Shown here: positions 2,401 through 35,206 of the stretch, in pieces
Position numbering within the stretch: position 1 is the first letter of the stretch
How the letters are laid out: every line of letters starts with the position of its first letter
NCBI GenBank assembly: GCA_900473685.1
Contig: UCNE01000014.1
Coordinates: forward strand, 62,001-126,000
From: Hyphomicrobiales bacterium
GTDB taxonomy: Bacteria; Pseudomonadota; Alphaproteobacteria; Rhizobiales; Rhizobiaceae
DNA: 64,000 nt
Direction: 5' to 3'
Position numbers and translations under genes: made by a program
The notes under the pieces: model-generated
Seen by the model: only the letters and a program-made list of their open reading frames with translations
What the model was told of the DNA's origin: nothing
Database searches by the model: none

Positions 2401-2405
2401 CTTTC

Positions 2406-3121: not shown

Positions 3122-3123
3122 GC

Positions 3124-4877: not shown

Positions 4878-4925
4878 AAAATGCCTGCCCGTGGTGGGCG
4901 GGTACAACAAAAAAAGGGAACTGAC

Positions 4926-10862: not shown

Positions 10863-11474
<612 letters not shown>

Positions 11475-11509
11475 CGCAATATTCCTTTCAAGAAGCGGGC
11501 TCTAAACCG

Positions 11510-12181
11510 TCAGGACCGGAAGAGCCGCGAATGCAAAGTCTCGTGGCGCAGCGCTGAAATATCAGCGGTAATGGTCGCGGAACCAAGATCATCCAGCGTG
11601 CTCGTCGCAGCCCGTGCCGCTGTTTCAGCGATCACCGGTTCCAGCCCGGCAAGCACACCAACGCCATGCGTCTGCCCCATCACCCCGCAACGGATTGCCA
11701 CCGAGACCAGATTGGATGCCGTCGAATGCAGGTAGGCAGCCAGCGCCGGTTCCAGCCCGGCACGATGCGCACCCGCAACCACGCCGACTGCAACAGGATA
11801 GGCAACCGCACCGGTCAGCGCTTCCAAAACCGGATGCGGCCAATGGGCGGCGGCTGTCAGAAACGCCTCCCCCTGCAGCATCGTTTCCATATGTCGCTCG
11901 CGCGATCCTGCCAGGGCTTCCGCCAGTTCCCGCACCGCTACAAGCCGGGGCGGATCGCCACACGCCTGATAGCTCTCGGCCAGCAACACCACGTCATTCC
12001 AACTCGAACCGTGCTCGATCAGCGCTTGCAACCATCGGGCAAGTTCGGGCGCATCGGTCACCAGGCCATCGTGCACTGCCTGCTCAAGCCCACCGGAATA
12101 GGAAAATGCCCCGACCGGAAAGGCCGGCGACAACCATGTCACCAGCCGCAGCAGCGCTTTGGTGCCAAGATGGTCAGTCAT
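11510..12181 (-). CDS. ureF: Urease accessory protein UreF
   Basis: This 223-residue, mostly helical protein has the UreF signature [20 protein letters not shown]. UreF acts as a GTPase-gating partner linking UreG to the UreD-apo-urease complex. The ATG at 12181 was chosen because it gives the typical N-terminus and overlaps the ureE stop by 8 bases, implying translational coupling; an in-frame start at 12229 would add 16 residues read from inside ureE. The sequence is otherwise normal for the family. Confidence 0.95.
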
Positions 12182-12656
12182 GGGCGTGATGGTGGCTGCC
12201 ATGTCCATGCGAATGCCCACCAGAGCCATGATAGGCGCCGCGCATCGGCTGGAACGGTTCCGTCACCTCGCCGACCGCCGCTCCCAAACCTTCCAGCATC
12301 GCCTTGATGACCGGATCGCGCAGGATCAGGACCCGGTCCAGCCGGATTTCGGCGGCAAGATGCCGGTTGCCGAGATGCCAGGCGAGTTCGATCAGGTGAA
12401 GCGGGTCACGTGGCCGGATATCGTAGAGTGGCTCATTGATGGCAGCGATACGAACGTACTCCCCGGTGTCCAGAACCAGCAGATCGCCATCGGCCAGCAT
12501 GACGGGCTCCTTCAGGTCGAGCATCACCACGTCGTCATTGTCGAGATGCAGCAATTTCCGGCGCACATGGCGCTGGTCATGAGCAAGCGCGATGGTGTGA
12601 AGCGGCGCCTTGTCTGCCGGGCCGGGAGACAGGATCTGGGTGGAGCGATAGGGCAT
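12174..12656 (-). CDS. ureE: Urease accessory nickel metallochaperone UreE
   Basis: This 160-residue protein has an N-terminal peptide-binding domain and a central metal-binding domain with the conserved [17 protein letters not shown] stretch, which holds the interface His. The C-terminal tail ends [16 protein letters not shown], a histidine-rich nickel store. It hands nickel to UreG. It overlaps ureF. Upstream lies a strong terminator (12698-12740) that ends the peroxiredoxin transcript, so ureEFG either depend on read-through or on a promoter in the roughly 40 bases in front of ureE. Confidence 0.97.
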
Positions 12657-14187: not shown

Positions 14188-15897
14188 CTAGAACATGAAG
14201 TAGCGCTGCGCCATCGGCAAGACGGTTGCGGGTTCGCAGGTCAGAAGTTCACCATCGGCCCGCACCTCGTAGGTTTCCGGATCGACTTCGATATGCGGCG
14301 TCAGGCTGTTGTGGATCATCGAGGCCTTGCTGATGCCGCCACGCGTGTTCTTCACCGCAATCAGTTGCTTTTCCACACCAAGGCGCGCCTGCAACCCGCC
14401 ATCGAGTGACGCCTGCGACACGAAGGTGACCGACGAGCTTGTCCTTGCCTTGCCAAAGGCGCCGAACATATGCCGGTAATGCACCGGCTGCGGCGTCGGG
14501 ATCGAGGCATTGGGATCGCCCATCGGCGCGGCCGCGATCATGCCGCCGAGCAGGACCATATCGGGTTTGACGCCAAAGAAAGCGGGGTTCCAGATCACCA
14601 GATCGGCACGCTTTCCGGGTTCGATCGAGCCGATTTCGTGGGAAAGGCCCTGCGCGATCGCCGGGTTGATGGTGTATTTGGCAATATAGCGCCGGACGCG
14701 GAAATTGTCGTTGTCGCCGGTTTCCTGCGCCAACCGGCCCCGCTGCCGCTTCATCTTGTCGGCCGTCTGCCAGGTACGGATCGACACCTCGCCGACGCGG
14801 CCCATGGCCTGGCTATCGGACGAAATGATCGAGAAGGCGCCGATGTCGTGGAGAATATCTTCGGCCGCAATGGTTTCCTTGCGGATCCGGCTTTCGGCAA
14901 ACGCAATATCTTCCGGGATGGACGGCGACAGGTGATGGCAGACCATGAGCATGTCGAGATGCTCGGCCAGTGTATTGACCGTGTAGGGCCGTGTCGGGTT
15001 GGTCGAGGACGGAATGACGTTCGACTGGCCGCAGATCTTGATGATGTCGGGAGCATGGCCGCCGCCGGCGCCTTCCGTATGAAACGCATGGATCGTGCGG
15101 CCCTTGATGGCGCCGATCGTATCCTCGACGAAACCGCTTTCGTTCAACGTATCGGTATGGATCATCACCTGCACGTCAAAGGCATCGGCAACAGACAGGC
15201 AATTGTCGATGGCGGCCGGCGTCGTGCCCCAGTCCTCGTGCAGCTTCAGGCTGGACGCTCCGGCAAGGATCATCTCTTCGATCGGTGCCGGAAGGGAAGC
15301 GTTGCCCTTGCCGGCCAGCGCCAGGTTCATCGGAAAGCCATCAAAGCTCTCGATCATCCGCTCGATATGCCAGGCGCCGGTGCAGGTCGTCGCCAGCGTC
15401 CCGTGCGCCGGACCGGAGCCACCGCCGAGCATGGTGGTAATGCCCGACATCAGGGCTTCCTCGATCTGTTGCGGGCAGATGAAATGGATATGGGCGTCCA
15501 TGCCGCCTGCCGTGACGATCTTGCCCTCCCCGGCGATCACCTCCGTCGAAGGGCCGACGATGATGGTCACACCCGGCTGGGTATCCGGATTTCCGGCTTT
15601 GCCGATCGCGGCAATGCGGCCGTTCTTCAGGCCGATATCGGCCTTGACGATGCCGGTATGATCAACAATCAGCGCATTGGTGATGACGGTATCGACCGCC
15701 CCTTGCGCCCGCGTGGCCTGGCTCTGGCCCATGCCGTCGCGAATGACCTTGCCGCCGCCGAACTTCACCTCGTTGCCATAGGTGGTAAAGTCTTTTTCCA
15801 CCTCGATGAACAGCTCGGTATCGGCCAGCCGAACCTTATCGCCGGTGGTGGGGCCGAACATGCTGGCATAGGCCGCGCGCGACATTTTGTAGGACAT
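14188..15897 (-). CDS. ureC: Urease alpha (catalytic) subunit UreC
   Basis: This 569-residue protein is full length for bacterial UreC. The di-nickel ligands are all present: H136 and H138 in DAHIHF, the carbamylated lysine K218 in [11 protein letters not shown]247, H273 and D361 in [12 protein letters not shown]. The mobile-flap pair C320-H321 is in MVCHHLSP. It hydrolyses urea to ammonia and carbamate in the cytoplasm with UreA and UreB. It starts 5 bases after the GT29-like gene stop. No key residue is missing. Confidence 0.99.
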
Positions 15898-15902
15898 GGT
15901 GA

Positions 15903-16559
15903 TCAGGCTCCCTGAGCAAAAGCGGGTAAATTCGTCTGGTCGAGGCGCGAGAGCTGCCCCTTGGAAATCAGGTCATCGACATAACGCCGTTCGGCCGCGA
16001 ACGGGTGCCATTCCCAGCCGGCATGGCCGAAACCGGCAAGCACCACGCGGTCGCCCGGCCGCTGCCAATGTGCCAACACTTCGGCAATCACAATCAGGCC
16101 GCTGCTCGGCACGACATAGACGCCCGTATCGAACTGTTTCAGCCCGGCATCGACACGCTCATGCGTGGAGGCCGGAACCGTGTGGAAGGTGCGGCCAGTC
16201 GCCTTGGCAAAGGCTAAAAAACCATCTGTATAGTCGTCGCAGAGATCATCGAGATCCGGGTGCGTGACGGCCAGCTGCGGCCGCAGCGTCTCGAATTTTC
16301 CAGCGTTACGGACACACCAGATGGCACGCGCCCGTCGCACCGCCGCACTCGTCTTCCATGCGCCACCACCCAGCATTGCCAGCGCCGGGCGTCCGGTGTT
16401 GCAGACGGCGACGATATCCGTCCTGTCTCCACCCGCACCGCAGGAGCGGCAATCGTTGAAGCGGATGACCAGATCGGCAGCATCGATCACCATAGCCGCG
16501 CCGTCCGGCACCGGGCCATTGCCAACGATCATGATGGTCCGGCTCGCGGTCACGGACAC
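15903..16559 (-). CDS. GT29 sialyltransferase-like protein of the urease operon ('urease operon accessory protein')
   Basis: This 218-residue protein carries patterns matching all diagnostic sialyltransferase motifs. An L-motif-like start is [12 protein letters not shown]...[10 protein letters not shown] (9-35). The S motif is [15 protein letters not shown]...VVLAGFG (151-178). A VS-type His-x4-Glu is H185-P-F-A-A-E190. There is no signal peptide or anchor, so it is likely cytoplasmic, unlike eukaryotic Golgi enzymes. Rhizobial homologues are usually named only for their position in the urease operon. It lies 1 base after the LprI-like gene and 5 bases before ureC, so it is tightly co-expressed. 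A nucleotide-sugar or related transferase role is inferred, not shown. Confidence 0.75.
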
Positions 16560-16560
16560 C

Positions 16561-16992
16561 TCAGTTTCCGGCCCCTTGCGTCAGGCCCTTCAGTTCTTCG
16601 GTGCGCTTCTTCGTCAGATCGGCAAGGCAACCGGAAACCAGCATCGGCTCCATCGATCCGCCGCGCGCCTCAAACCCGGCAAGCTCGCACTGGCCATCGC
16701 GATAATCGATCCATGCGCGCTGGGCTTTCTTCAGGGCATCGACCGCACCGACATAATTGGCATCGATCTCGCCGAGTTCCTTGTCGGTATCCTTCACCGC
16801 CGCCATGGCCTTCTTATAGACCGCGTTCAGCTCGGTATCGGCCGCTTCATAATCCTTGTTGGCACAAATGTTCATGTCCGCCTGGGTTTCGGCTTTAGCG
16901 CAATCGACCTGCGGTTCTCCCTGCGCCTGCGCGAAAGTGACCTGAAGGAGAGTTGCGGCAAGAAAACCTGAAACGAAGAGATACCGCCTCAT
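16561..16992 (-). CDS. LprI/DUF1311 family secreted protein
   Basis: This 143-residue protein has a signal peptide (cleavage near AQAQG). Its mature domain has conserved cysteines: [16 protein letters not shown], the central DGQCELAGF and [11 protein letters not shown]. This is the DUF1311/LprI pattern known from lysozyme-inhibitor-like periplasmic proteins. It overlaps the ureB stop by ATGA and precedes the GT29-like gene by 1 base, so it is translated as part of the urease operon. A secreted protein within a cytoplasmic enzyme operon is unusual; its job there is unknown. Confidence 0.85.
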
Positions 16993-17294
16993 AGCTTGCC
17001 CATCACTTTTTGCCGAAACCCATAGACCTCGCGCTTGCCGGCAAACGGAATGAGCGTGACGCTGCGGGTTTGTCCCGGCTCGAACCGGACGGCCGTCCCA
17101 GCCGGAATATCGAGGCGCCGTCCGTGCGCCACGGCGCGATCGAACAACAGGGCGGCGTTGGTTTCGGCAAAATGATAGTGGCTGCCGACCTGCACCGGGC
17201 GGTCGCCGCTATTGGAAACGTCGAGCGACACCGTTTCCAGTCCGGCATTCAGTTCGATATCACCATCTGCCGCAAGGATTTCACCGGGGATCAT
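16989..17294 (-). CDS. ureB: Urease beta subunit UreB
   Basis: This 101-residue beta subunit starts with the typical MIPGEIL and contains [19 protein letters not shown] and [17 protein letters not shown]. It is a structural subunit that packs around UreC. Size matches the separate three-gene (UreA, UreB, UreC) architecture. It begins 17 bases after DUF1272 and ends overlapping the LprI-like start by 4 bases. Confidence 0.98.
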
Positions 17295-17311
17295 CGTATC
17301 GTCTCTCCTGT

Positions 17312-17566
17312 TCAGGCAGCTTTGATCGGCGCGCAGCCATCCGCTTTCAAGACACGCTCGGTGGATGCCGGAAACTTGCCAAGCTTGGCGGCGGGGCGAA
17401 CCGGGCGGCGAACAAGTTCGCCGCTACAGTTCGGGCATTGCCCATAGAGAACATCAGTGACGCACTGCGTGCAGAAGGTGCATTCGAAACTGCAGATCAT
17501 GGCTTCGCGGCTACCCGGCGGCAGGTCCTTGTCGCAGCATTCGCAATTGGGTCTCAGTTGCAGCAT
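17312..17566 (-). CDS. DUF1272 cysteine-rich small protein
   Basis: This 84-residue protein opens with [19 protein letters not shown] and continues [14 protein letters not shown] and [12 protein letters not shown]. It has cysteine pairs expected to bind one or two zinc ions. This is the DUF1272 family, found between ureA and ureB in rhizobia. It lies 9 bases after ureA and 17 before ureB. A zinc-ribbon protein in a nickel-enzyme operon could be a metal-handling or assembly factor, but no function is established. Confidence 0.88.
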
Positions 17567-17575
17567 GGTCTTTCC

Positions 17576-17878
17576 TCAGCGAATAGGTTCGTGGACGGTG
17601 ACGAGCTTGGTCCCGTCCGGAAAGGTCGCCTCGATCTGGATGTCGTGGATCATCTCCGGAATGCCCTCCATCACCTGGGCGCGGGTGATGACGTGGGCGC
17701 CGGCCTCCATCAGGTCCGGCACCGAGCGGCCATCACGAGCGCCCTCGACAACAAAATCGGTGATCAGCGCGATCGCTTCGGGATGATTGAGCTTCACCCC
17801 CCGCTCCAGCCGCCGGCGGGCAACCATGGCCGCCATCGAAATCAGCAGTTTGTCTTTTTCACGGGGTGTCAGGTTCAT
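17576..17878 (-). CDS. ureA: Urease gamma subunit UreA
   Basis: This 100-residue subunit begins [20 protein letters not shown] and contains [22 protein letters not shown], both highly conserved in UreA. It is a small structural subunit of the UreABC trimer. It lies 26 bases after ureD. Confidence 0.98.
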
Positions 17879-17904
17879 GCTTGGTCACCAGGATTGCGTG
17901 TCAA

Positions 17905-18741
17905 TTAGAGGTTCCAGACTTTCGGCACAGAGGCGCCGTTGCGCAAGTGCGAAATGATCGGGATGAGGATTTTTCTCAGGGCAAAACCATCGGCCGCAAC
18001 GACACGGGCAACCAGCTTATCCTCACCCGCAACCCGGTAGTGGCTGACCCCGCCACCGATACCGCCAATCAGGCCGCGCAGTTTTTCCACATGCAGTTCG
18101 CAATGTGCGCCGGTGTAGAAGAGTGTCGCGAACGCAACCTGTCCGCCGAGCACCGCCAATTCCTGCGTCAAGCCGGCGACGTCACCGGAGAGCCGCAGGT
18201 TTTCCGCATGCAGAAGCACACCATTGCTGTGGATGCGCCAGCGATCCTGAAACAGCCCTTCCCGCATCGCCTCGCCCATTGCCTTGCGGCCGAGAAGCAC
18301 CGCCTCGACAGCCAGGAATTCCGCCCCTTCAGCAAGATCGACCTCCAGCTTCCGAGACAGCGAGGCACGATCGAACAGGATGGTTTCCTGCGGCAGCCAG
18401 TGCACCGTGGCACCCGCGCCAACCGAAATCTGCGCTGTCACGTCGGCCGTCCCGGTGCTCGCTTTGTAGATTTTCTCGCAGGCCTGCGTGGTCAGCGTCA
18501 GATGTGTGCCCTCGCCAGCCACAAACGACCATTCCATGTGATCGCCGCCGGTCAGGCCTCCGGAGCTGTTGATCAGCACGGCTTCCATCGTGGTGTCAAA
18601 TGTATCCGGCAGCCTGATCTTGGCGCAGCCTTCCTGATAAAACTCGGCCAGCCGGCTACGCCCCGCAAACGGCTTTGCCACCAGCCGTCCCTTGCCCCAT
18701 GCCCTTTGCGGCGCGATTCCTGCTGCCTCAATCATTCCCAT
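17905..18741 (-). CDS. ureD: Urease accessory scaffold UreD
   Basis: This 278-residue protein has the UreD pattern: [33 protein letters not shown] and the [18 protein letters not shown] block. UreD binds apo-urease and channels nickel from UreG/UreF. It begins 6 bases after urtE, joining urea transport and urease into one probable transcription unit. The start could be at 18741 or at the ATG two codons later. Confidence 0.96.
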
Positions 18742-18747: not shown

Positions 18748-19443
18748 TCAAACTGTCAGGTGGCGGCGCGCTTCCGGCGTATCCAGCGTTTCGGCCGGGC
18801 CTTCATGCACGATCTCGCCCCTATCCATGATATAGACATGGTCGGCAAGCTCGCGGCAGAAGTCAAGATATTGTTCCACAAGCAGAATTGCCATCCCGGT
18901 GGAATCGCGCAGATACTGGATCGCGCGGCCAATATCCTTGATGATCGACGGCTGGATGCCCTCCGTCGGCTCGTCGAGCACGAGGATTTTCGGCCGCGTC
19001 ACCAAAGCCCGGCCGATGGCGAGCTGCTGCTGCTGCCCACCTGAGAGATCACCGCCCCGGCGGCCAAGCATCGAGCGCAGGATCGGGAACAGATTGAAGA
19101 TATCCTCGGGAATGAACCGGTCCTTGCGCGCCACCGGCGCATAGCCCGATTCCAGGTTTTCCTTGACCGTCAGCAGCGGAAAGACCTCACGCCCCTGCGG
19201 CACAAATCCGATGCCGTGCTTGGCGCGGTTGTAAGGCGCCATACCGTTCAGCACCGTGTCGTTGAAGGTAATCGTTCCGGCGCTCGGCCCATGCTGGCCG
19301 GTGATCGCCCGGAGCAGGCTCGTCTTGCCGACGCCATTGCGGCCGAGAACGCAGGTGATCTTGCCCATGGGAGCGGTGATGGAGACGCCGCGAAGGGCTT
19401 GCGCTGCGCCATAGTGCAGGTTGATGTTGTCGACGGTCAGCAT
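18748..19443 (-). CDS. urtE: Urea ABC transporter ATP-binding protein UrtE
   Basis: This 231-residue LivF-type ATPase has MLTVDNINLHYGAAQALRG, Walker A GRNGVGKTSLL, signature LSGGQQQQLAIGRAL, Walker B ILVLDEPTEGIQP and the H-loop region. The TEGIQPSI motif is typical of UrtE over LivF. The ATG at 19443 was chosen because longer in-frame sequence is read through palindromic repeats (19472-19603). It is the last gene of urtABCDE and lies 6 bases before ureD. Confidence 0.96.
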   Translation of the reverse strand: MLTVDNINLHYGAAQALRGVSITAPMGKITCVLGRNGVGKTSLLRAITGQHGPSAGTITFNDTVLNGMAPYNRAKHGIGFVPQGREVFPLLTVKENLESGYAPVARKDRFIPEDIFNLFPILRSMLGRRGGDLSGGQQQQLAIGRALVTRPKILVLDEPTEGIQPSIIKDIGRAIQYLRDSTGMAILLVEQYLDFCRELADHVYIMDRGEIVHEGPAETLDTPEARRHLTV

Positions 19444-19471
19444 GCGGCACCCACATTCGATGAGAACAGCC

Positions 19472-19603
19472 CACCCCCCTCTGTCGGCGACGCCGACATC
19501 TCCCCCACAAGGGGGGAGATCATCAAGGGCATTTGAGCGTATAAAAGAAAAGGACAATCTCCCCCCTTGTGGGGGAGATATCGCGAAGCGACAGAGGGGG
19601 GTG
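19472..19603. repeat. Composite palindromic repeat inside the urt operon
   Basis: Two inverted copies of a palindromic unit (around ATCTCCCCCACAAGGGGGGA at 19498-19520 and its reverse at 19555-19580) are enclosed by an outer inverted repeat, CACCCCCCTCTGTCG at 19472 and GACAGAGGGGGGTG ending at 19603. The core is the CTCCCCC-ACAAGG-type sequence common between genes in rhizobia. It fills most of the urtD-urtE gap and could form a very stable transcript structure. Confidence 0.85.
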
Positions 19604-19651
19604 AAAGCGGCATCCACCGGCCGTCGAACATTGAAACATTGTAATGCATCG

Positions 19652-20404
19652 TCACCGCCCCAGATAATTCTCGATCACCTTCGGATCGTTGCTGACGAAA
19701 TCGATGGAGCCTTCGGCGAGCACCGAGCCCTCGGCAAGGCAGGTCACCTTGACCCCGAGATCCCGGATGAAGCCCATGTCGTGCTCGACCACAACCACCG
19801 AGCGGGTCTTGGCGATTTCCTTGAGCAGGATGGCGGTTTCGGCCGTTTCCGCGTCGGTCATGCCGGCGACCGGTTCGTCGACCAGAAGCAGTTTCGGCTC
19901 CTGCGCCAGAAGCATGCCGATTTCCAGCCATTGCTTCTGCCCGTGCGAGAGATTGGCTGCCAGATCGTCCTTGCGGGCGGCCATGCGCACCGTTTCGAGA
20001 ATGTCCTCGATACGCACTTTGTCCTCGGCTGTCAGGCGGTAGAATAGTGTCGAGAACACGCCGCGTTTCCGGTTGAGCGCCAGTTCGATATTGTCCCAGA
20101 CCGTGTGGCTTTCGAACACTGTCGGCTTCTGGAATTTGCGGCCGATGCCGAGCTGGGCGATTTCGGCTTCGTCCCGCTTGGTGAGGTCGATATCGCCGTT
20201 GAAGAAAACCTGGCCGCTGTCGGGCCGGGTCTTGCCGGTGATGATGTCCATCATCGTCGTCTTGCCCGCACCGTTCGGGCCGATGATGGCCCGGAGTTCA
20301 CCGGGTTCGACCACGAAGGAGAGCGAGTTCAGCGCCTTGAAGCCATCGAACGAGACCGAAACACCATCGAGATACAGAAGGCTGCGGGAGGTTTTTTCGT
20401 CCAT
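19652..20404 (-). CDS. urtD: Urea ABC transporter ATP-binding protein UrtD
   Basis: This 250-residue LivG-type ATPase has Walker A IGPNGAGKTT, a Q-loop in GIGRKFQKPTVFE, the signature-region variant LSHGQKQWLEIGMLL and Walker B LLLVDEPVAGMTD. The LSHGQ signature and the EIGMLL sequence are characteristic of UrtD. It powers urea import with UrtE. It starts 5 bases after urtC; a repeat-filled gap of about 200 bases separates it from urtE. Confidence 0.97.
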   Translation of the reverse strand: MDEKTSRSLLYLDGVSVSFDGFKALNSLSFVVEPGELRAIIGPNGAGKTTMMDIITGKTRPDSGQVFFNGDIDLTKRDEAEIAQLGIGRKFQKPTVFESHTVWDNIELALNRKRGVFSTLFYRLTAEDKVRIEDILETVRMAARKDDLAANLSHGQKQWLEIGMLLAQEPKLLLVDEPVAGMTDAETAETAILLKEIAKTRSVVVVEHDMGFIRDLGVKVTCLAEGSVLAEGSIDFVSNDPKVIENYLGR

Positions 20405-20409: not shown

Positions 20410-21603
20410 TTACTCCGCAGCCTGGGGTTCAAGGATTGCAAGCTGGCTCTCGGCCTTAGCCGTTGCCTTGTCCTGATAGGCCTTTTCAACCACATCAGCT
20501 TGTCTCTGTTCCTTGCGCCGGGCCAGGAACTGCTGGACCGTGCCGACCACGCCCTTGGGCAGGAACAGCGTCGTTGCGACGAATAGCGCGCCGAGCGCAA
20601 ACAGCCAGAATTCCGGGAAAGCGGCGGTAAAAATGCTCTTGCCGAAATTGACGAGAATGGCGCCGATGATCGGGCCGATCAGCGTTCCGCGCCCGCCGAC
20701 GGCCGTCCAGATCACCACTTCGATCGAGTTCGCCGGTGCGAATTCGCCGGGATTGATGATGCCGACCTGCGGCACGTAGAGCGCGCCAGCCACACCGGCC
20801 ATCATCGCCGAGACGGTGAAGATGAACAGCTTCATGTTCTCGACGCGGTACCCGAGAAACCGGGTCCGGCTTTCGGCATCGCGCACGCCGACCAGCACCT
20901 TGCCGTATTTCGAGCGGACGACGGCGGAACTGAGGAGCAGCGCCAGCGCCAACGCTACTGCAGTTGCCGCGAACAAAGCCGCCCGCGTGCCGCCAGCCTG
21001 AACGTTGAAACCAAGGATTTCCTTGAAATCGGTCAGGCCATTATTGCCGCCAAAACCCATCTCGTTGCGGAAGAAGGCAAGCAGCAGCGCGTAGGTCATC
21101 GCCTGGGTGATGATCGACAGATAGACGCCGGTAACGCGCGAGCGGAAGGCAAACCAGCCGAAGACGAAGGCTAGCAATCCGGGCACCAGGAGCACCATCA
21201 GAGCCGCAAAGGCGAAATGGTTGAAGCCGTACCAATACCAGGGCAGTTCCTGCCAGTTGAGGAAGACCATGAAATCCGGCAGCAGCGGATTGGCATAGAC
21301 GCCGCGATCGCCGATCTGGCGCATCAGGTACATGCCCATGGCATACCCGCCAAGTGCGAAGAACGCGCCATGGCCGAGCGAGAGAATGCCGCAATAGCCC
21401 CAGACCAGATCAAGCGCCAAGGCCAGAAGCGCATAGCAGAGATACTTGCCAAGCAGCGGCACCAGATAGCCGGGGACATGAAAGACGCTGTCTTCCGGGA
21501 TCAGCAGATTGGCGAGCGGCACGAGGGCGGCGGCAAGCAGGATCAGGAAAACAGCCCAGATCGTCTTCTTTTCGTGCCGGCTGAAAAGCATTTGCGTGAT
21601 CAT
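20410..21603 (-). CDS. urtC: Urea ABC transporter permease UrtC
   Basis: This 397-residue LivM-type permease has about ten membrane helices. It contains LVWGYCGILSLGHGAFFALGGYAMGMYLMR (best-conserved core CGILSLGHGAFFALGGYA) and a C-terminal cytoplasmic tail rich in Glu, Lys and Ala. The start at 21603 overlaps the urtB stop by ATGA; a longer in-frame extension overlaps urtB entirely and is not real. It forms the channel with UrtB. Confidence 0.96.
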   Translation of the reverse strand: MITQMLFSRHEKKTIWAVFLILLAAALVPLANLLIPEDSVFHVPGYLVPLLGKYLCYALLALALDLVWGYCGILSLGHGAFFALGGYAMGMYLMRQIGDRGVYANPLLPDFMVFLNWQELPWYWYGFNHFAFAALMVLLVPGLLAFVFGWFAFRSRVTGVYLSIITQAMTYALLLAFFRNEMGFGGNNGLTDFKEILGFNVQAGGTRAALFAATAVALALALLLSSAVVRSKYGKVLVGVRDAESRTRFLGYRVENMKLFIFTVSAMMAGVAGALYVPQVGIINPGEFAPANSIEVVIWTAVGGRGTLIGPIIGAILVNFGKSIFTAAFPEFWLFALGALFVATTLFLPKGVVGTVQQFLARRKEQRQADVVEKAYQDKATAKAESQLAILEPQAAE

Positions 21604-23207
21604 TGTTCGACCGCCCTTCCCTTGAGCGCGAACAGGCCGCGTGGCCGCCGCTGGATGAAAAGAATGATGAAGACGAGGATAAGGATCTTGCCGAGCACCG
21701 CGCCGGCATAGGGTTCCAGAAACTTGTTGGCGATGCCAAGCGTCAGCGCGCCGACCAGTGTTCCCCAGAGATTGCCGACACCGCCAAAGACCACGACCAT
21801 GAAACTGTCGATGATGTAGTTCTGACCGAGATTGGGCGAGACATTGTCGATCTGGCTGAGCGCCACGCCGGCCATGCCGGCAATGCCGGAGCCGAGCCCG
21901 AATGTCAGCGCATCGACCCAGGGCGTGCGGATGCCCATCGAGGACGCCATGCGCCGGTTCTGCGTGACGGCGCGCATCTGCAGGCCGAACTTGGAACGTT
22001 TCAGCAGCAGCAGCAAGGCGACGAAGACACCGAGCGAAAAGACGATGATCCACATGCGGTTATAGGTGATGGCAAGGCCACCAGCCTCGAAGACGCCAGA
22101 CATCCAGCTTGGATTATCCACCTGGCGATTGGTCGGGCCAAAGATGGTGCGGATCGCCTGCTGCAGGATCAGCGAGATACCCCAGGTGGCGAGCAGCGTT
22201 TCGAGTGGCCGTCCGTAGAGCCATCGGATGACGCTGCGCTCGATGCAGACACCGACGAGACCGGTAAAGAGGAAGGCCGCAGGCACCGCAAAGGCCAGCG
22301 AAAAATCGGCCATGCCCGGGGCAACGGCGGCAATCGTCTGCTGCACGACATAGGTGGTGTAGGCGCCGAGCATGACCATTTCGCCATGCGCCATGTTGAT
22401 AATGCCCATGACGCCGAAGGTGATCGCCAGGCCGATGCCGGCAAGCAAAAGGACCGAGCCCAGCGACAGGCCATACCAGACATTTTGCGCGACATCCCAG
22501 GCGGCAAGACTGCGCTCGATCGCATTGATATGCGTCTGGATAGACGGCTTCAGGTCATCCGGCGCGTTGTTCATGGCTGCCGTCAGGATCGTCAGCGCAT
22601 CGCGATTACCGCGCGCAGCGATGGTATCGATGGCGGCTTTTTTGTCTTCGGCGCTGGCTTCGGTCTTGAGCAGGATGACGGCGCGGGCCGCTTCCATCGT
22701 CGCCTTGATCTCGGCATCTTTTTCCTGCGCCAGCGCTGAGTTCAACAGGTCGAGATTATCCGGATTGGCATCCTTGAGCAGATCCCGCGATGCCGCCAAC
22801 CGGGCGGCGCGGTCTGGGCTCAAAAGCATCAACTGGCTAAGCGCCGTACCGATTGCGCCGCGCAGGCCGTTGTTCAAGCGGATCTTGGCAAGATTTCCCG
22901 GCACCTCGGCCACCGCGGCCCCCGTCAGCACGTCAAGATAGGTGCCGCCGGACGGGCCTTCGAGATAAACCGCACCACCAGTCTTCGGCGCATAAAGCTT
23001 GCCGTCGCTGAGATTTTGCAGGATGTCGCCAACTTTGGGATCGCCCGATACAGCAAGCGCCTTGACCGCCTCGATCTTCTGGGGGAAGGCCGTCGCGCCC
23101 AGCGCATCGACCAGCGGCCGGATATTCTCCTCAGCGCGGAGGCCCGTCGCAAGGCAACCGGCCAGCAGGCAGAGAGCAACAACGAAGGTCTGGATGGCGC
23201 GATACAT
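21600..23207 (-). CDS. urtB: Urea ABC transporter permease UrtB with N-terminal periplasmic domain
   Basis: This 535-residue LivH-type permease is almost twice the size of LivH. It has a signal peptide (LCLLAGCLATGLRAEEN), then a helical periplasmic domain of about 210 residues (PLVDALGATAFPQKIEAVKAL, RAARLAASRDLLKDANPDNLD and so on). The permease domain starts near VWYGLSLGSVLLLAGIGLAITFG. The N-terminal extension is a UrtB hallmark of unknown role. The start at 23207 has an AAGAAGAG site. A gap of about 215 bases with a strong hairpin separates it from urtA. Confidence 0.96.
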   Translation of the reverse strand: MYRAIQTFVVALCLLAGCLATGLRAEENIRPLVDALGATAFPQKIEAVKALAVSGDPKVGDILQNLSDGKLYAPKTGGAVYLEGPSGGTYLDVLTGAAVAEVPGNLAKIRLNNGLRGAIGTALSQLMLLSPDRAARLAASRDLLKDANPDNLDLLNSALAQEKDAEIKATMEAARAVILLKTEASAEDKKAAIDTIAARGNRDALTILTAAMNNAPDDLKPSIQTHINAIERSLAAWDVAQNVWYGLSLGSVLLLAGIGLAITFGVMGIINMAHGEMVMLGAYTTYVVQQTIAAVAPGMADFSLAFAVPAAFLFTGLVGVCIERSVIRWLYGRPLETLLATWGISLILQQAIRTIFGPTNRQVDNPSWMSGVFEAGGLAITYNRMWIIVFSLGVFVALLLLLKRSKFGLQMRAVTQNRRMASSMGIRTPWVDALTFGLGSGIAGMAGVALSQIDNVSPNLGQNYIIDSFMVVVFGGVGNLWGTLVGALTLGIANKFLEPYAGAVLGKILILVFIILFIQRRPRGLFALKGRAVEQ

Positions 23208-23285
23208 GAGCTCTTCTTGTTCCGTTGGCTTGGGCAGCCGCGCATTGACGGGAAACACGTCATGCCAGGCGTGGGGATAAAGGTT

Positions 23286-23314
23286 CCTCCGCCCAGACGG
23301 GGTCTGGACGGAGG
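23286..23314. other. Strong hairpin between urtA and urtB
   Basis: A 13-bp stem with one mismatch and a 3-base loop (CCTCCGCCCAGAC / GTCTGGACGGAGG). No T-run follows on the minus strand, so it is not a classic terminator; it may protect the urtA message or attenuate read-through to urtB. Confidence 0.65.
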
Positions 23315-23422
23315 GTATTGGCATTTCAATCAGCACGTCATGAGAATGAACTTTGGGAAACGGCCGTCAGGCCGTTGCCGGAATATGCTGAGCTTGATGA
23401 AATCAGCTTGTATTCGGTAGGA

Positions 23423-24712
23423 TCAGGAACCCTTGCCACCGCACTTGCCCGTTGCAACGTTGAAGTTGCCGCAGGACATCGGCTTACGCCAATCGGAGAT
23501 CAGATCCTTCGAGTCCGGCAGGAAGTCCGACCATTCGTCGCCGACAACCTGTGGGGTCTGCTGGACGATTTCGAACTGGCCGTCGGCCTGGATTTCACCG
23601 ATCAGCACCGGCTTGGTGATGTGGTGGTTCGGCATCACGGTGGAGTAGCCGCCCGAAAGGTTGGGGACGCTGGTACCGATGATCGTGTCGAGAACAGCAT
23701 CGGTTTCGGTGGTTCCGGCAGCTTCGACGGCTTTTACCCAGGCGTTGAAGCCGATATAGGCAGCTTCCATTGGGTCATTGGTGACGCGCTTGTCGTTCTT
23801 GGTGAAGGCATGCCACTGCTTGATGAATTCGGCATTGGCAGGGGCATCGACGGACTGGAAATAGTTCCAGGCGGCGAGATGGCCGACCAGCGGCTTGGTG
23901 TCGAGACCGGCAAGCTCTTCTTCGCCAACCGAGAAGGCGACGACCGGGATATCGGTTGCCTTGATGCCCTTGTTGCCGAGTTCCTTGTAGAACGGCACGT
24001 TGGCATCACCGTTGATGGTCGAAACGACGGCGGTCTTCTTGCCCGCCGAACCGAATTCCTTGATCTTGGCCACTTCCGTCTGCCAGTCGGAGAAACCGAA
24101 CGGCGTGTAGTTGATCAGGATGTCTTCCTTCGGAATGCCCTTGGCAATCAGATAGGCTTCGAGAATCTTGTTGGTCGTGCGCGGATAGACATAGTCGGTG
24201 CCTTCAAGCACGAAACGCTCGACACCTTCGGTGTTCATCAGATAATCGACGGCCGGGATAGCCTGCTGGTTCGGAGCCGCACCGGTGTAGAAGATGTTGC
24301 GCGAGGATTCTTCACCCTCGTACTGCACAGGATAGAACAGGATCGAATTCAGCTCTTCGAAAACCGGCAGGACCGACTTGCGCGAGGACGAGGTCCAGCA
24401 ACCGAAGACAGCAGCGACCTTATCGACGGAAATCAGCTCGCGGGCTTTTTCGGCAAACAGCGGCCAGTCGGAGGCCGGATCGACGACGACGGCCTCGAGC
24501 TTCTTGCCGAGGAGACCACCCTTCTTGTTCTGCTCTTCGATGAGCATCAGCATGGCATCCTTGAGCGTCGTCTCGGAGATCGCCATGGTGCCGGAGAGCG
24601 AATGCAGCACGCCGACCTTGATCGTGTCTTCGGCAGCCTGGACGCTGGAAAACGCTGTCGTGGCGAGCGCGCTGGCCAGAAACGCGCCCAGAATCTGGGA
24701 TTTGAATTTCAT
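23423..24712 (-). CDS. urtA: Urea ABC transporter periplasmic binding protein UrtA
   Basis: This 429-residue type I periplasmic binding protein has a signal peptide ending near SVQAAED. The mature start IKVGVLHSLSGTMAISET, then FGCWTSSSRKSVLPVFE, LFYPVQYEGEESSRNIFYTGAAPNQQ and LEGTDYVYPRTTN are the family signature shared with FmdD/UrtA. The start has a GAGAGGGG site. It is the first gene of the urt-ure block and diverges from the permease-kinase gene. High expression relative to the permeases is expected. Confidence 0.97.
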   Translation of the reverse strand: MKFKSQILGAFLASALATTAFSSVQAAEDTIKVGVLHSLSGTMAISETTLKDAMLMLIEEQNKKGGLLGKKLEAVVVDPASDWPLFAEKARELISVDKVAAVFGCWTSSSRKSVLPVFEELNSILFYPVQYEGEESSRNIFYTGAAPNQQAIPAVDYLMNTEGVERFVLEGTDYVYPRTTNKILEAYLIAKGIPKEDILINYTPFGFSDWQTEVAKIKEFGSAGKKTAVVSTINGDANVPFYKELGNKGIKATDIPVVAFSVGEEELAGLDTKPLVGHLAAWNYFQSVDAPANAEFIKQWHAFTKNDKRVTNDPMEAAYIGFNAWVKAVEAAGTTETDAVLDTIIGTSVPNLSGGYSTVMPNHHITKPVLIGEIQADGQFEIVQQTPQVVGDEWSDFLPDSKDLISDWRKPMSCGNFNVATGKCGGKGS

Positions 24713-25027
24713 GATGTGAACCCCTCTCGTTCTTTTGACGACGGCGCTTGGAGACCTTTGCCGTTCGTAAGGAAACTATCCGCCGGAGTTTCGGAATTCT
24801 GTATACGTCAATTAACGTAGTTGCCGGGGCGAAGTGTGCACCGCAGCACACGCGGACACGCTTTACCCGGAATGCCGGTCTTGCCCGGGCGGCATAGCTG
24901 CGGCCGCCGTTTGAAAAACAAATCCGCCGGTCCCCAATCAATCCCAATCTCGCACTTGCAAAAGACCGCGGACCGGAGGACATTGCCTAATCATTGATCA
25001 TATACCGAGTGGGAATATAAATTAGGC
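24713..25027. promoter_or_regulatory. Divergent control region urtA / permease-histidine kinase
   Basis: This 315-base gap holds no gene. Two dyads with the same 6-base spacer are seen: TACGT-N6-ACGTA (24804-24819) and GTGTGC-N6-GCACAC (24834-24851), centres 31 bases apart, about 90-140 bases upstream of urtA. A further inverted repeat TGCCTAAT...ATTAGGCA spans 24984-25028, touching the kinase start codon. No clear NtrC site or sigma-54 promoter was recognised by eye. Confidence 0.55.
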
Positions 25028-28000
25028 ATGACGGCACGCCAGCGCATCATCCCGGTCCGCCGCGAATACAATCGCTGGGTCGCCAACCAGACGCTGGAAG
25101 ACTACGCGCTGCGGTTCACCGCCAAGAGCGCCCGGCAGTTCTCCTCGCAACGCATTTCGCAGACGGCGATCGGGGCGATCTCGTTTCTAGCGCTGGAGGC
25201 GATCGGCGGCGCAATCACCCTCTCCTATGGCACTACCAATGCCATCATCGCCATTCTCGCAGCCAGCCTCGTCATGCTCGGCGTCGGCCTGCCGATCAGC
25301 CGCTATGCCATCCGCCACGGCGTCGATATCGACCTTTTGACGCGCGGCGCCAGTTTTGGCTATATCGGCTCGACCATCACGTCGCTGATCTATGCCTCGT
25401 TCACCTTCATGCTATTTGCCATCGAGGCCTCGATCATGTCGGCGGCGCTGGAACTGGCGCTCGGCATCCCCGTCTGGATCGGCTATATCATCAGCGCCGT
25501 CATGGTCATCCCGCTGGTGACCCATGGTGTCCGGCTGATCAGCAAATTTCAGCTTTTGACCCAGCCGTTCTGGATCATCCTCAATATCGCACCCTTTATC
25601 TTCATCGCGCTGGCCGACTGGAGCAAGTTCGACCTCTGGCTTGCCTTTCCCGGCACCAGCAAGCCATTCGGCGAACCCGGTACGCTCGCACCGTTTTCGC
25701 TGCTGGAATTCGGCGCAGCCTCCGCCGTCATCCTCGCCCTGATGGCGCAAATCGGCGAGCAGGTGGATTTTCTCCGCTTCCTGCCGCCGGAGGGCCAGCG
25801 CAAGCTGCATCACCGGTTTGCCGTGTTCCTCGCCGGTGCCGGCTGGGTCATCGTCGGCGCGCCAAAGCTTTTGGCCGGCTCGTTCCTGGTCGTCCTGTGC
25901 CTCAGTGCCGGCGTGCCGCTTGAGGATGCCGCCGACCCCGCGCATATGTACCTGACCGCGTTCGGCTACATGATCCCGTGGCACAATGCGGCGCTGTTGC
26001 TGATGGCCGCCTTCGTCGTCGTGTCGCAGTTGAAGATCAACGTCATGAACGCCTATGCAGGCTCGCTCGCCTGGTCGAATTTCTTCTCCCGCCTGACCCA
26101 TAGCCATCCCGGCCGCGTCGTTTGGCTGATGTTCAATGTGGCCATCGCGCTGCTGTTGATGGAACTCGGCATCTACAAACTGCTCGAAGAGACGCTTGGC
26201 ATTTTCTCGATCATCGCCATGGCCTGGCTGTGCACGATCTCCGCCGATCTGTTCATCAACAAGCCGCTGGGGCTGGCACCACTCAACATCGAGTTCAAGC
26301 GCGCCCATCTCTACGATATCAACCCGGTCGGCACCGGCGCCATGACGGCATCGGCGCTGATCGCGTTGACGGCGCATTTCGGCGTGTTTGGCGCCATGGC
26401 CGCGTCGCTAGCGCCCTATATCGCGCTGATCACAGCCCTCATCGTCTCGCCCGCCATCGCCTGGGCGACAAAGGGAAAATACTATCTCGCGCGCAAGCCG
26501 CGCCAAAGCTGGAAGAAACTCTCGACCGTTACCTGCTCGATCTGCGAACATCCGTTCGAGCCCGAGGACATGGCCTGGTGCCCGGCCTATTCCGCGCCGA
26601 TCTGCTCGCTCTGCTGCTCGCTCGACAGCCGCTGCCATGACATGTGCAAGCCCCATGCGAGCTTCAACGCGCAGACAGCGGTGGTGGCCAAGGCCCTGCT
26701 GCCGCAAAAGGTGATGGAAACGCTGTCCACCCGGCTCGGCCGCTATGGCATCGCCGTCGTCCTATCGGTCGCCTGCATCGGCATCATTCTGGCGATGATC
26801 GCCCATCAGACCGGCACGGCTTCGCCGGAAACGGCATCGGTGATCAACCGGACGGTCGGCGTGGTCTTCTTCGTCTTCGCCGTCGTCACCGGCGTCGTCT
26901 GCTGGTTTTACGTGCTTGCCCATGACAGCCGGCTGGTGGCCGAAGAAGAATCCTCGCGGCAGAACACCCTGCTTTTGAAAGAAATCGCCGCGCACAAGAA
27001 AACCGACGCCGCCCTGCAATATGCCAAGGAAACGGCCGAGGCTGCCAACCGGGCAAAGAGCCGCTATGTGGTCGGCCTCAGTCATGAACTGCGCACGCCG
27101 CTCAACGCCGTTCTCGGCTATGCCCAGATCCTCGAGCGTGACGAGACGATCCCAGCACCGCGCCAGTCGGCGATCAAGGTCATCAAGCGCAGCGCCGATC
27201 ATCTCTCCGGCCTGATCGACGGTCTGCTCGATATTTCCAAGATCGAGGCGGGGCGCCTGCAGGTCTATTCCAATGAAATCAACATTCAGGACTTCCTCGA
27301 TCAGATCACCGACATGTTCCGCCCGCAAGCGCAGGCTAAGGGCCTGTTCTTCGAGCACGATCGGGCAAGCGCCCTGCCGCAATATGTCCGCACCGACGAG
27401 AAGCGCCTGCGCCAAATCCTCGTCAATCTGCTCTCCAATGCCATCAAGTTCACCGATACCGGCACCATCCGCTTCGACGTCGCCTATCGCAGCCAGGTGG
27501 CGGCCTTCACGGTCTCCGACACCGGCCGCGGCATATCACAGGCCGACCTGCCGCGGATCTTCGAACCCTTCCAGCGCGGCGAGGCCGAGCATATCCGGCC
27601 GATGCCTGGCCTTGGCCTTGGTCTGACGATCACCCGGCTTCTGACCCAGACACTTGGCGGCGAGATCGTCGTTGATAGCGAGCGCGACAAGGGTTCGACC
27701 TTTCGGGTGCGGCTGATGTTGTCAGCAATCGATCGCCCGACGGCCACCCTTCCCTCGATCCGCAAGATCGCCGGCTACGCCGGGCCACGTCGCACCATCG
27801 TCGTGGTCGATGACAACGAGGATCATCGCGACCTGATGCGCGAAGTGTTGATGCCGCTCGATTTCGTCGTGCTGACGGCTGCTGGTGGCATGGAATGCCT
27901 GACCCTGATCGAGGGCATCAAGCCCGACCTTTTCCTCATCGACATCTCGATGCCCGGCATGAACGGCTGGCAGCTGGCAACCCGCCTGCGCGATCATGGA

Positions 28001-28417
28001 CAGACGGCGCCGGTCATCATGGTGTCGGCCAATATCGGCGATGGCACGGCGGCCGATACCCATACGGGCCACAACGATACGTTGGCAAAACCCTTCGATA
28101 TCCGCCAGCTGCAGGACAAGCTGGCGGTGCATCTGACCCTCGAATGGATCTATCGCGACACGGTGCAACCGGCGCTCAAGGCCAAGCCCAAACGCACCAT
28201 GACGACCCCCGGCGCTGCCCATGTCGAAGAACTGATCCGGCTCGGCGAGATCGGCTATGTCCGGGGAATCGAGGCCAAACTCACCGATCTCGCCCGGCAG
28301 GAGGAAAACCAGCCGTTTACCGATGCGGTCAAGACCTATGTCCAGGCTTTCGACCTTGCCGGCTATGCCGACTTCCTGCAGAACATCAACAAACAGGGGG
28401 GACCGGCCGGTGAATGA
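25028..28417 (+). CDS. Hybrid sensor histidine kinase with N-terminal NCS1-type permease domain
   Basis: This 1129-residue protein begins RREYNRWVANQTLEDYALRF, the N-terminal signature of NCS1 nucleobase/hydantoin/allantoin permeases, and continues with about 12 membrane helices to around residue 480. A cysteine cluster follows (C503, C506, C518, C526, C529, C530, C536, C540), probably zinc-binding. Then come two more membrane spans (about 575-635), a kinase core with H686 in SHELRTPLN, the N-box near N804 (NLLSNAIKFTD), G-boxes (DTGRGIS, GLGLGLT) and a receiver with D972 in LIDISMPGMNG. A short helical C-terminus may be a phosphotransfer-like region. It diverges from urtA and overlaps the LuxR regulator gene. 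Sensing of urea, purine or ureide nitrogen is inferred. Confidence 0.88.
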   Translation: MTARQRIIPVRREYNRWVANQTLEDYALRFTAKSARQFSSQRISQTAIGAISFLALEAIGGAITLSYGTTNAIIAILAASLVMLGVGLPISRYAIRHGVDIDLLTRGASFGYIGSTITSLIYASFTFMLFAIEASIMSAALELALGIPVWIGYIISAVMVIPLVTHGVRLISKFQLLTQPFWIILNIAPFIFIALADWSKFDLWLAFPGTSKPFGEPGTLAPFSLLEFGAASAVILALMAQIGEQVDFLRFLPPEGQRKLHHRFAVFLAGAGWVIVGAPKLLAGSFLVVLCLSAGVPLEDAADPAHMYLTAFGYMIPWHNAALLLMAAFVVVSQLKINVMNAYAGSLAWSNFFSRLTHSHPGRVVWLMFNVAIALLLMELGIYKLLEETLGIFSIIAMAWLCTISADLFINKPLGLAPLNIEFKRAHLYDINPVGTGAMTASALIALTAHFGVFGAMAASLAPYIALITALIVSPAIAWATKGKYYLARKPRQSWKKLSTVTCSICEHPFEPEDMAWCPAYSAPICSLCCSLDSRCHDMCKPHASFNAQTAVVAKALLPQKVMETLSTRLGRYGIAVVLSVACIGIILAMIAHQTGTASPETASVINRTVGVVFFVFAVVTGVVCWFYVLAHDSRLVAEEESSRQNTLLLKEIAAHKKTDAALQYAKETAEAANRAKSRYVVGLSHELRTPLNAVLGYAQILERDETIPAPRQSAIKVIKRSADHLSGLIDGLLDISKIEAGRLQVYSNEINIQDFLDQITDMFRPQAQAKGLFFEHDRASALPQYVRTDEKRLRQILVNLLSNAIKFTDTGTIRFDVAYRSQVAAFTVSDTGRGISQADLPRIFEPFQRGEAEHIRPMPGLGLGLTITRLLTQTLGGEIVVDSERDKGSTFRVRLMLSAIDRPTATLPSIRKIAGYAGPRRTIVVVDDNEDHRDLMREVLMPLDFVVLTAAGGMECLTLIEGIKPDLFLIDISMPGMNGWQLATRLRDHGQTAPVIMVSANIGDGTAADTHTGHNDTLAKPFDIRQLQDKLAVHLTLEWIYRDTVQPALKAKPKRTMTTPGAAHVEELIRLGEIGYVRGIEAKLTDLARQEENQPFTDAVKTYVQAFDLAGYADFLQNINKQGGPAGE

Positions 28418-29333
28418 AGAAGTGCATCCGCGCGATATCGTGCTCATCGTCGACGATTCCCCGGAAACACTGGGTTTTCTCACCGACGCACTGGAGCAAT
28501 CCGGCTTCTCCGTCCTGATCGCCACCTCTGGAAATGCGGCCATCAACGTCGTCGACCGCATCACGCCGGACGTCATCCTGATGGATGCCGTCATGCCGGG
28601 CATGAATGGCTTTGAAACCTGCCGGATGCTGAAGACCAATCCTGCCGTGGCGCAGGTGCCGGTGATCTTCATGACGGGGCTGACCGAGACCGAGCACATC
28701 GTCCACGCACTCGAATCCGGCGGCGTCGATTACCTCTCAAAGCCGATCAATATCGACGAACTGCGCGCCCGCATCCGCGTTCACCTCGCCAATGCGCGCT
28801 CGGCGCAAAGCGCCCGGGTGGCACTGGACGCAGCAGGGCGGCATCTGCTTGCCGTGCGCAGCAATGGCACCATTCAGTGGTCGACCCCGCAGGCAACCCG
28901 GCTGGTCAATGCGGCGACAGGCCGCGACGATGGGCTGGACACGCTTGCAGTTCATGTTCGCGATTGGCTGCAGGAGCGGCAGAAATACGGCGTCTCAAAG
29001 GACGGCCCGCTGATGATCCATCAGAACGGCCAGCCGGTGCTACAGCTCGCCTATCTCGGCGCCATCGGCGGTGACGAATTCCTGTTCCGGCTGACCGGCG
29101 TCAGCCAGACCAGCGACGACGAAATTCTCCGTCAGAATTTTTCGCTGACGGTGCGCGAGGGGCAGGTTTTGCTCTGGATCGCCAAGGGCAAATCCAATCG
29201 CGACATCGGCGAAATCCTCGGCCTCAGCGCCCGCACGGTCAACAAGCATCTGGAGCAGATTTATGTGAAGCTCGGCGTCGAGAACCGCGCCTCCGCCGCC
29301 GTCAAGGCGGCGAATGCGCTGCGTCAGGAATAG
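28410..29333 (+). CDS. LuxR/NarL-family response regulator
   Basis: This 307-residue protein has a receiver domain (VLIVDDSPETLGF; phosphoacceptor D59 in ILMDAVMPGMNGF; Lys in YLSKPINID). A middle region of about 100 residues follows (PAS-like appearance, NGTIQWSTPQATRLVNA), then a C-terminal LuxR helix-turn-helix (VREGQVLLWIAKGKSNRDI...SARTVNKHLEQIYVKLGV). The GTG at 28410 was chosen because GGGGGG lies just upstream and it overlaps the kinase stop by 8 bases, showing translational coupling. It is the likely output partner of the permease-kinase and the natural candidate regulator of the urt-ure operon. Confidence 0.9.
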   Translation: MNEEVHPRDIVLIVDDSPETLGFLTDALEQSGFSVLIATSGNAAINVVDRITPDVILMDAVMPGMNGFETCRMLKTNPAVAQVPVIFMTGLTETEHIVHALESGGVDYLSKPINIDELRARIRVHLANARSAQSARVALDAAGRHLLAVRSNGTIQWSTPQATRLVNAATGRDDGLDTLAVHVRDWLQERQKYGVSKDGPLMIHQNGQPVLQLAYLGAIGGDEFLFRLTGVSQTSDDEILRQNFSLTVREGQVLLWIAKGKSNRDIGEILGLSARTVNKHLEQIYVKLGVENRASAAVKAANALRQE

Positions 29334-31619: not shown

Positions 31620-31741
31620 CTTGTTACTCCCAAAAAAATTGAGCGGGTGCCTTTTAAAACCAGTCACGATACCCACCATAATCGCGCCGGTATTCTTATC
31701 TCCGCGCCAGCATCAAAGGCTCTGACACGGGGTTCCCTCTG

Positions 31742-32086: not shown

Positions 32087-32204
32087 TCCGTTTCTCCCCT
32101 TCAAAGCGCCGGGCGGTTTTCAAACCGCACGCGAACGCCCCAGTATATCGGATAGGCAAACCGGCCCGGGTCGAAAGACCCCTCTGACGCGGGCCGGAAA
32201 GCCA

Positions 32205-33814: not shown

Positions 33815-33816
33815 GA

Positions 33817-35202: not shown

Positions 35203-35206
35203 TGAA

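Follow-up and report, generated by a model that had tools for sequence, protein, structure and literature searches.

The window analysed here, 64,000 nucleotides of contig UCNE01000014.1 from a Hyphomicrobiales bacterium, contains a two-component system which stands back to back with a urea transport and urease cluster. Its kinase is a hybrid histidine kinase of 1129 residues (25028..28417, plus strand) headed by an NCS1-type domain, as judged from its open reading frame (ORF), Pfam matches, an AlphaFold2 model, comparison with folds in the PDB and hhalign. The head, a predicted sensor domain, comprises residues 1-490 (25028..26497) and is followed by a cysteine-rich ribbon delineated in the kinase alignment (residues 503-540, 26534..26647) and, N-terminal of the kinase core, by two extra transmembrane (TM) helices predicted from hydropathy (residues 574-592 and 612-630, 26747..26917). 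Pfam then finds a HisKA dimerisation domain with the phospho-acceptor H686 (residues 677-742, 27056..27253), a HATPase_c domain (residues 789-898, 27392..27721) and a receiver domain with D972 (residues 924-1032, 27797..28123). The next gene, which overlaps the kinase ORF by 8 bp, starts with GTG and encodes a LuxR-type response regulator of 307 residues (28410..29333, plus strand) composed of a receiver (residues 11-123, D59) and a GerE helix-turn-helix domain (residues 245-300). The catalytic motifs thus identify a two-component system, and the Pfam architecture is that of the hybrid kinases with LuxR-type regulators of the CrbS/RpuS kind. An earlier note on this DNA had described a permease-type head fused to a hybrid kinase and receiver, with a LuxR partner in an 8-bp overlap, diverging from urt-ure; ORFs, Pfam and NCBIfam confirm this arrangement, to which the ribbon and the two additional TM helices are new.

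The divergent cluster lies on the minus strand and reads leftward from 24712 as urtA, urtB, urtC, urtD, urtE, ureD, ureA, ureB, ureC, ureE, ureF and ureG. The start of urtA, which encodes the binding protein of a urea ATP-binding cassette (ABC) transporter (23423..24712; TIGR03407, 550 bits against a cut-off of 493), is 315 bp from that of the kinase, and a candidate palindromic operator, TACGTCAATTAACGTA (24804..24819), is centred about 100 bp upstream of it. The products of urtB (21600..23336, TIGR03409), urtC (20410..21606, start approximate, TIGR03408), urtD (19652..20404, TIGR03411) and urtE (18748..19617, true start probably internal, TIGR03410) pass their NCBIfam cut-offs, as do those of ureC (14188-15897), ureE and ureG. 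Within the ureD-to-ureC region (14188..18741) we take the ORFs at 17905-18741, 17576-17878 and 16989-17294 to be ureD, ureA and ureB from their position, and ureF, in the ureE-ureF-ureG segment (10863..12656), is likewise a presumed name; neither ureD nor ureF has an NCBIfam match at E 1e-30.

In the AlphaFold2 model (pLDDT 80.9, pTM 0.81) residues ~15-490 form an NCS1-type domain, and comparison with PDB folds returns NCS1 transporters ahead of SLC5 chains. Searches of the PDB by sequence failed to show this relationship, phmmer with the single head giving chance matches only and a profile of 45 domains a single weak zinc-ribbon match (E 2.3) and no NCS1 protein, and profile-profile and fold comparison were therefore needed. 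The alignment of head domains (45 of 47; L058 and L086 were omitted as incomplete, and L039, a genome-search match resembling another symporter family, was not used) scores 98.6% with hhalign against an alignment containing CodB (E 8e-16) and 0.1% against a control alignment of the SLC5 proteins PutP and ActP, which together with the lower SLC5 fold rank rules out an SLC5 origin. The D-x-x-R-F motif after TM6 and the TM8 tyrosine of CodB and Mhp1 are retained. The head was thus rightly taken in the earlier note to be of NCS1 rather than SLC5 type; the match to Pfam Transp_cyt_pur that it had suggested looking for is missing, since none of the 45 head domains exceeds the gathering score of PF02133. 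Among stand-alone sister permeases one of seven scanned does so, a Klebsiella protein (38.1 bits against 23.5) that is 38.6% identical to the window domain. As the Pfam family gives no match, fold and profile-profile comparison carry the assignment, and from the model and the alignments the head is best described as NCS1-derived and not as a canonical permease of that family.

The fusion is not an assembly artefact, since it recurs: of 199 genomes of the order 49 match the head and 45 carry kinase-fused copies, at 47 places, one of them (G002) on a 5.9-kb contig. A wider set of 173 loci combines these 47 with the best 80 of 591 matches in named genomes, six plasmid records and 40 loci from 398 genomes of the phylum, namely those fetched with flanks among the phylum-sample places listed; it was not dereplicated, close relatives are over-represented among the 80, and the window itself is included (L040). 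Without L237, which has no domain, and the stand-alone permeases L168 and L236, 170 kinases remain. By tblastn, 93 of these adjoin a true urtA and/or ureC (in seven, L208, L210, L221, L226, L227, L233 and L234, ureC is the neighbour and the stretch contains no true urtA), 66 adjoin a second type of urtA and/or fmdA, amiE or amiF, and five adjoin fmdA and an amiS/UreI-type channel. The linkage to urea genes expected in the earlier note is accordingly conserved, in the named Alpha- and Gammaproteobacteria and across several types of urea and amide locus, whereas a constant position beside urt-ure is not. Among the other six kinases L086, L125, L135 and L235 lie at contig ends and L172 has urtABCDE downstream by annotation, which leaves L129. 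The label 'second type' is our own and denotes a UrtA only 36-42% identical to that of the window with formamidase or amidase neighbours; database records call these genes urt, and a urt set beside fmdA has been suggested to import formamide (PMC13209695). On plasmids, Klebsiella accounts for 342 of the 541 records matching the sensor domain, and in the one read (L167) urtABCDE-amiF diverges from the kinase pair. Six of the 170 kinases (L083-L086, L169 and L225) do not match the kinase half of the window protein; L085, the one profile-scanned, has HisKA and HATPase domains. With the exception of L086 these form a shorter branch in which the same head is joined to another kinase half and fmdA and amiS lie nearby, and the regulator of L085, again the one scanned, is OmpR-like.

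An unbiased dyad search found TACG-N8-CGTA upstream of urtA in 67 of 71 dereplicated urea-type loci, compared with at most eight loci for any dyad in five mononucleotide shuffles. The dyad is present in 32 of 34 loci in which urtA lies at least 600 bp from the kinase and in 31 of 46 second-type loci. With up to two mismatches the longer form TACGTC-N4-GACGTA occurs in 46/47 adjacent, 35/37 distant and 30/65 second-type loci (leaving out two in which urtA lies downstream of the kinase), and in 2/470, 3/370 and 7/650 of the corresponding shuffled stretches. The same type of palindrome occupies the gap between kinase and permease in Acinetobacter baumannii, between kinase and fmdA in Methylovirgula and, on the Klebsiella plasmid, between kinase and urtA. 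Among the 45 kinase genomes 26 contain the strict motif somewhere, 24 of them at the locus, compared with 7 of the 154 others; a reversed control pattern is present in 5 of 45 and 21 of 154. Rarity as such was rejected as proof, TACGT-N6-ACGTA being found at one place in 5.5 Mb and its reversed control also once. Around the extra strict sites of six genomes (G188, G050, G023, G068, G037 and G135) tblastn gave only weak matches to ABC ATPases (23-32%) and none to ureC, urtA, fmdA or amiE.

The half-site may vary with residue 278 of the regulator. With asparagine, TACGTC is the best site in 74 of 104 loci, 19 tie, three have TACGCA and eight no site; with aspartate, mostly in Bradyrhizobium, a TACGCA-like site is present in 20 of 24 (0.25 expected by shuffling); with lysine, at ureC-linked loci, TACGCC is found in four of five. 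Since the residue groups follow lineage the match is suggestive only, and residue 278 was rejected as the determinant, as threonine (15 loci) goes both ways and asparagine includes the three TACGCA loci and the eight without a site. A loose, unvalidated pattern for sigma-54 sites matched upstream of urtA in 0/47 adjacent, 0/37 distant and 0/64 second-type loci (0.7, 0.55 and 0.95 expected from shuffling, an expectation that applies to the urtA side only); upstream of the kinase it matched in 0/47, 1/37 and 9/64.

Because a conserved operator precedes urtA, the pair very likely controls urt. It could be argued that the pair merely travels with urt and regulates something else: a UrtA at least 60% identical to that of the window is present in at least 107 genomes of the order sample, and among the matches listed 36 of these genomes have the kinase and 71 do not, so that the system is optional for urt-bearing genomes. 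Such hitch-hiking is nevertheless highly improbable in view of the linkage in both proteobacterial classes and at several locus types, and of the behaviour of the palindrome. Where the genes are apart the palindrome stays with urtA (35 of 37 loci, at a median of 102 bp) and not with the kinase (1 of 37), and where urtA occurs without a kinase it is absent (none in 20 genomes taken near the top of the list of 71, the best matches having three to five mismatches). The reading which we regard as quite probable is that the kinase is a receptor whose divergent NCS1-type sensor is tuned to urea or short-chain amides, and that its regulator binds the palindrome and activates urtABCDE-ure.

The predicted ligand pocket was mapped by aligning the head to CodB at 16% identity, anchored on FG-x2-GS, D-x2-R-F and the TM8 tyrosine, a mapping in sequence and not in space that uses the CodB residue list of PMC9379551. 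At that level of identity the aromatic substrate sandwich and the Na2 side chains of CodB are not found in the head: Trp108 aligns with Leu or Phe129, Phe204 with Leu238 and the Na2 ligand Thr278 with Lys336, while Gln105 becomes Thr126 and Ala207 becomes Gln241. Residue counts cover 169 of the 173 loci, four with less than 85% coverage or no domain being left out, and E57, T126, E133, L238, Q241, E244, Q245, K336, N338 and N341 are identical in all 168 aligned kinases. A reduced aromatic sandwich combined with fixed polar residues would fit a small amide-like ligand. Another NCS1 protein, MetT, carries the acyclic, urea-like metformin (PMC13390362); it is a stand-alone transporter. Residue 129 is leucine in 82 of 93 urea-linked loci and phenylalanine in 64 of the 66 second-group loci, and residue 340 (M/T) separates the groups similarly well; since all 12 deviating urea-linked loci come from the phylum sample (L203-L242), these positions were rejected as specificity residues and the split more likely reflects phylogeny.

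The earlier note had likened the head to a nucleobase, hydantoin or allantoin permease and spoken of urea or ureide nitrogen, and a ureide or nucleobase ligand (allantoin, hydantoin or uracil) could announce urea that is about to be released. NCS1 ancestry would suit this, as would the labels allantoin or cytosine permease that sister permeases bear in records. At the left edge of the window there is, moreover, what we take to be the end of a hydantoinase/dihydropyrimidinase-like ORF. A presumed cupin-like ORF and the genes of an ABC transporter whose binding protein looks ThiY-like are found in the same region (1-5918), and this side of the urease genes is possibly a pyrimidine-degradation locus. 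A ureide or nucleobase ligand is nonetheless distinctly unlikely, as the aromatic pair of CodB is replaced or reduced in the alignment and the annotated neighbours read are genes for urease, formamidase and aliphatic amidase (no profile search for nucleobase or allantoin genes was made).

The ribbon contains eight cysteines, none of which varies among the 168 aligned kinases. Seven of nine stand-alone permeases retain at most four of them and one retains five, which could indicate that the ribbon is the true sensory site, responding to redox state or metal, and the NCS1 part a mere anchor. Urease requires nickel, which would give such a sensor a role; amide operons are not known to require this metal. 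The ninth permease, the 549-residue Methylovirgula protein P0004, has all eight cysteines, so that the module is not exclusive to kinases, and the NCS1 pocket is just as invariant; a redox or metal sensor is therefore unlikely. Pfam gives no STAC or PAS match between head and kinase at E up to 1, the presence of a STAC model in the library being unchecked. By analogy, the ribbon and the two TM helices may do here what STAC does in CbrA.

Further evidence on the ligand comes from the stand-alone sisters of the head, defined as proteins 50-100% identical to one from Acinetobacter, of which 14 records were read. Urea or amide genes adjoin the permease in nine of them: it precedes ureEFGJDABC in three Acinetobacter records, follows ure genes in two from Klebsiella (one with an IS110-type transposase where ureC is expected), faces fmdA in Moraxella, lies near fmdB-fmdA in Tsukamurella, precedes amiE in Arthrobacter U41 and follows the kinase pair in Methylovirgula, flanked by fmdA and amiE. 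The permease of an unannotated A. baumannii record diverges from a kinase-regulator pair, with no other such genes. The urease-cluster permeases of Klebsiella and Acinetobacter (L288, L298, L168, L293 and L299) are labelled cytosine permease, allantoin permease or hypothetical; those of them that were aligned have the pocket residues of the sensors and are candidate urea permeases. L236 (8156-12580) holds a stand-alone NCS1 permease of more remote relationship, after which come what we take to be a nitrilase-like hydrolase and a binding protein resembling AmiC/UrtA. A FastTree phylogeny of 49 selected sequences unites the kinase domains in one clade (node support not printed) and eight stand-alone permeases in another (0.998), with P0004 beside the kinases and the urea and second-type contexts interleaved.

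Nine of the pocket residues, T126, E133, L238, Q241, E244, Q245, K336, N338 and N341, are common to the nine tabulated permeases and all 168 kinases. The head might accordingly be a true transceptor, the term used in the earlier note, which also transports urea or amides, the kinase reading its transport cycle as is thought for CbrA, which transports histidine even though its Na2 residues are not conserved (PMC7918813). In TM1, however, the sensors have leucine at position 56 (163 of 168; methionine in three, cysteine in two) and glutamate at 57 (168 of 168), where all nine permeases, of which two hardly differ from each other, carry aspartate at 56 and phenylalanine or glutamine at 57, possibly marking the loss of a coupling acid, and a dedicated ABC importer or permease often adjoins the kinase. 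Because of this difference in TM1 a pure receptor appears equally possible from the residues, and a transporting head is a tenable but less probable version of the receptor proposed here. We lean, with some reserve, towards an NCS1-type clade, not described in the papers found, that would handle urea and short-chain amides. Its stand-alone members would serve as urea and amide permeases at the urease, formamidase and amidase loci of Acinetobacter, Klebsiella, Moraxella and Actinobacteria. Its kinase-fused branch would have arisen once, exchanged D56/F57 for L56/E57, come to rely on the eight-cysteine relay and become the receptor of a two-component system with its own conserved operator, widespread from Rhizobiales to Klebsiella plasmids.

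Transporter-derived membrane heads are also found on the SLC5/STAC kinases CbrA, CrbS/MxtR and RpuS, of which RpuS likewise has a LuxR-type partner and CrbS/MxtR carries a receiver at its C-terminus (PMC9100948, PMC7918813). The window kinase is not filed with them because its head is of NCS1 and not of SLC5 type; a cysteine-rich ribbon and two TM helices separate head and kinase, and it is linked to urea and amides rather than to histidine, acetate or pyruvate. Ks-Amt5, an ammonium transporter domain on a histidine kinase, is similarly a nitrogen-source transporter turned sensor, with the Amt fold and ammonium as ligand in place of the NCS1/LeuT fold (PMC5764959, PMC8534201). By analogy the window kinase appears to work like CbrA and CrbS (PMC9100948, PMC7918813, PMC13022988) and Ks-Amt5. 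With CodB and Mhp1 the head has its fold in common, and it differs from them in being fused to a kinase, in lacking a Pfam match and in having the Na2 and aromatic residues replaced. AmiC/AmiR also controls short-chain-amide genes, through a ligand-sensing negative regulator of an antiterminator (PMC13209695) instead of a membrane receptor kinase and a predicted DNA-binding regulator. No system of the present kind was found in the open-access PMC literature, a weak absence given that scope, in which the only bacterial urea sensing found was urea chemotaxis of H. pylori and no urea receptor kinase appeared; NCS1 wording was looked for in PMC11109136 and not found. In S. meliloti, genes SMb20602-SMb20605, which synteny identifies as urt genes, are reported to be lowered 12- to 25-fold when tolC is mutated (PMC2912261).

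The orthologous pair of that organism, placed by synteny with urt and dct genes, is presumably SMb20609/SMb20610. SMb20609 is called functionally uncharacterized in PMC12542648, whose consulted passages describe no transporter head, ligand or target for it. According to the same source PhaR binds the SMb20609 promoter, and a phbC phaR strain has higher SMb20609 (log2 3.38 in TY), SMb20610 (0.85), UreA (0.93) and UreB (0.63) than phbC.

A urea or amide receptor would operate as follows. Ligand binding in the central pocket would shift the NCS1 domain between conformations, and the shift would pass through the cysteine-rich ribbon and the two extra TM helices to the kinase dimer, altering phosphorylation of H686. 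Phosphate would reach D59 of the adjacent regulator either directly or with the kinase's own receiver as a modulator, and the regulator would bind the palindrome that lies some 100 bp in front of urtA, thereby activating urtABCDE-ure. In relatives the same logic may govern urt genes of the second type together with those for formamidase or amidase, or else a stand-alone sister permease.

Several observations weigh against this reading, in addition to the absent PF02133 match and the many urt-bearing genomes without the pair. The strict palindrome is missing in 35 of 65 second-type loci, of which 25 have a half-site variant with up to two mismatches and eight neither a variant nor TACG-N8-CGTA, and at all five fmdA-amiS loci it is absent from the 600 bp in front of the kinase. 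L129 has no urea or amide neighbour within 10 kb on either side, and yet keeps the palindrome. Four of the 14 sister permease records, from Streptomyces angustmyceticus, Arthrobacter NicSoilB11 and, unannotated, S. chartreusis and Arthrobacter StoSoilB13, have no such neighbour. The co-change in S. meliloti may be a common effect of PhaR. Finally, the urea/amide split is soft, as the second-type UrtA of L063 scores 538.8 bits with the curated profile for urea UrtA, above its cut-off of 492.75; for this reason, and because the records say urt, urea may be a ligand common to both neighbourhood groups.

Elsewhere in the window, the ORFs interspersed in the urease genes, all on the minus strand, encode a cysteine-rich protein of 84 residues between ureA and ureB (17312-17566) and, between ureB and ureC, a secreted-looking protein of 143 residues (16561-16992) and one of 218 residues with no NCBIfam match at E 1e-30 (15903-16559). 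On the far side of the regulator (30498-36112, minus strand) lies what we take to be a second ABC set of the branched-chain-amino-acid type, with a binding protein, two permeases and two ATPases.

If the proposal is right, a further transporter family, beside SLC5 and Amt, has been converted to kinase sensors, and stand-alone permeases and sensors with a common pocket would make it possible to study directly the step from transporter to receptor. The proposal would suggest a function for SMb20609/SMb20610 of S. meliloti and for proteins annotated as 'hybrid sensor histidine kinase' beside urt or fmdA, and a role in urea or amide handling for permeases that stand beside urease genes and are now annotated as transporting cytosine or allantoin. 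The palindrome would then serve as a ready reporter of the system.

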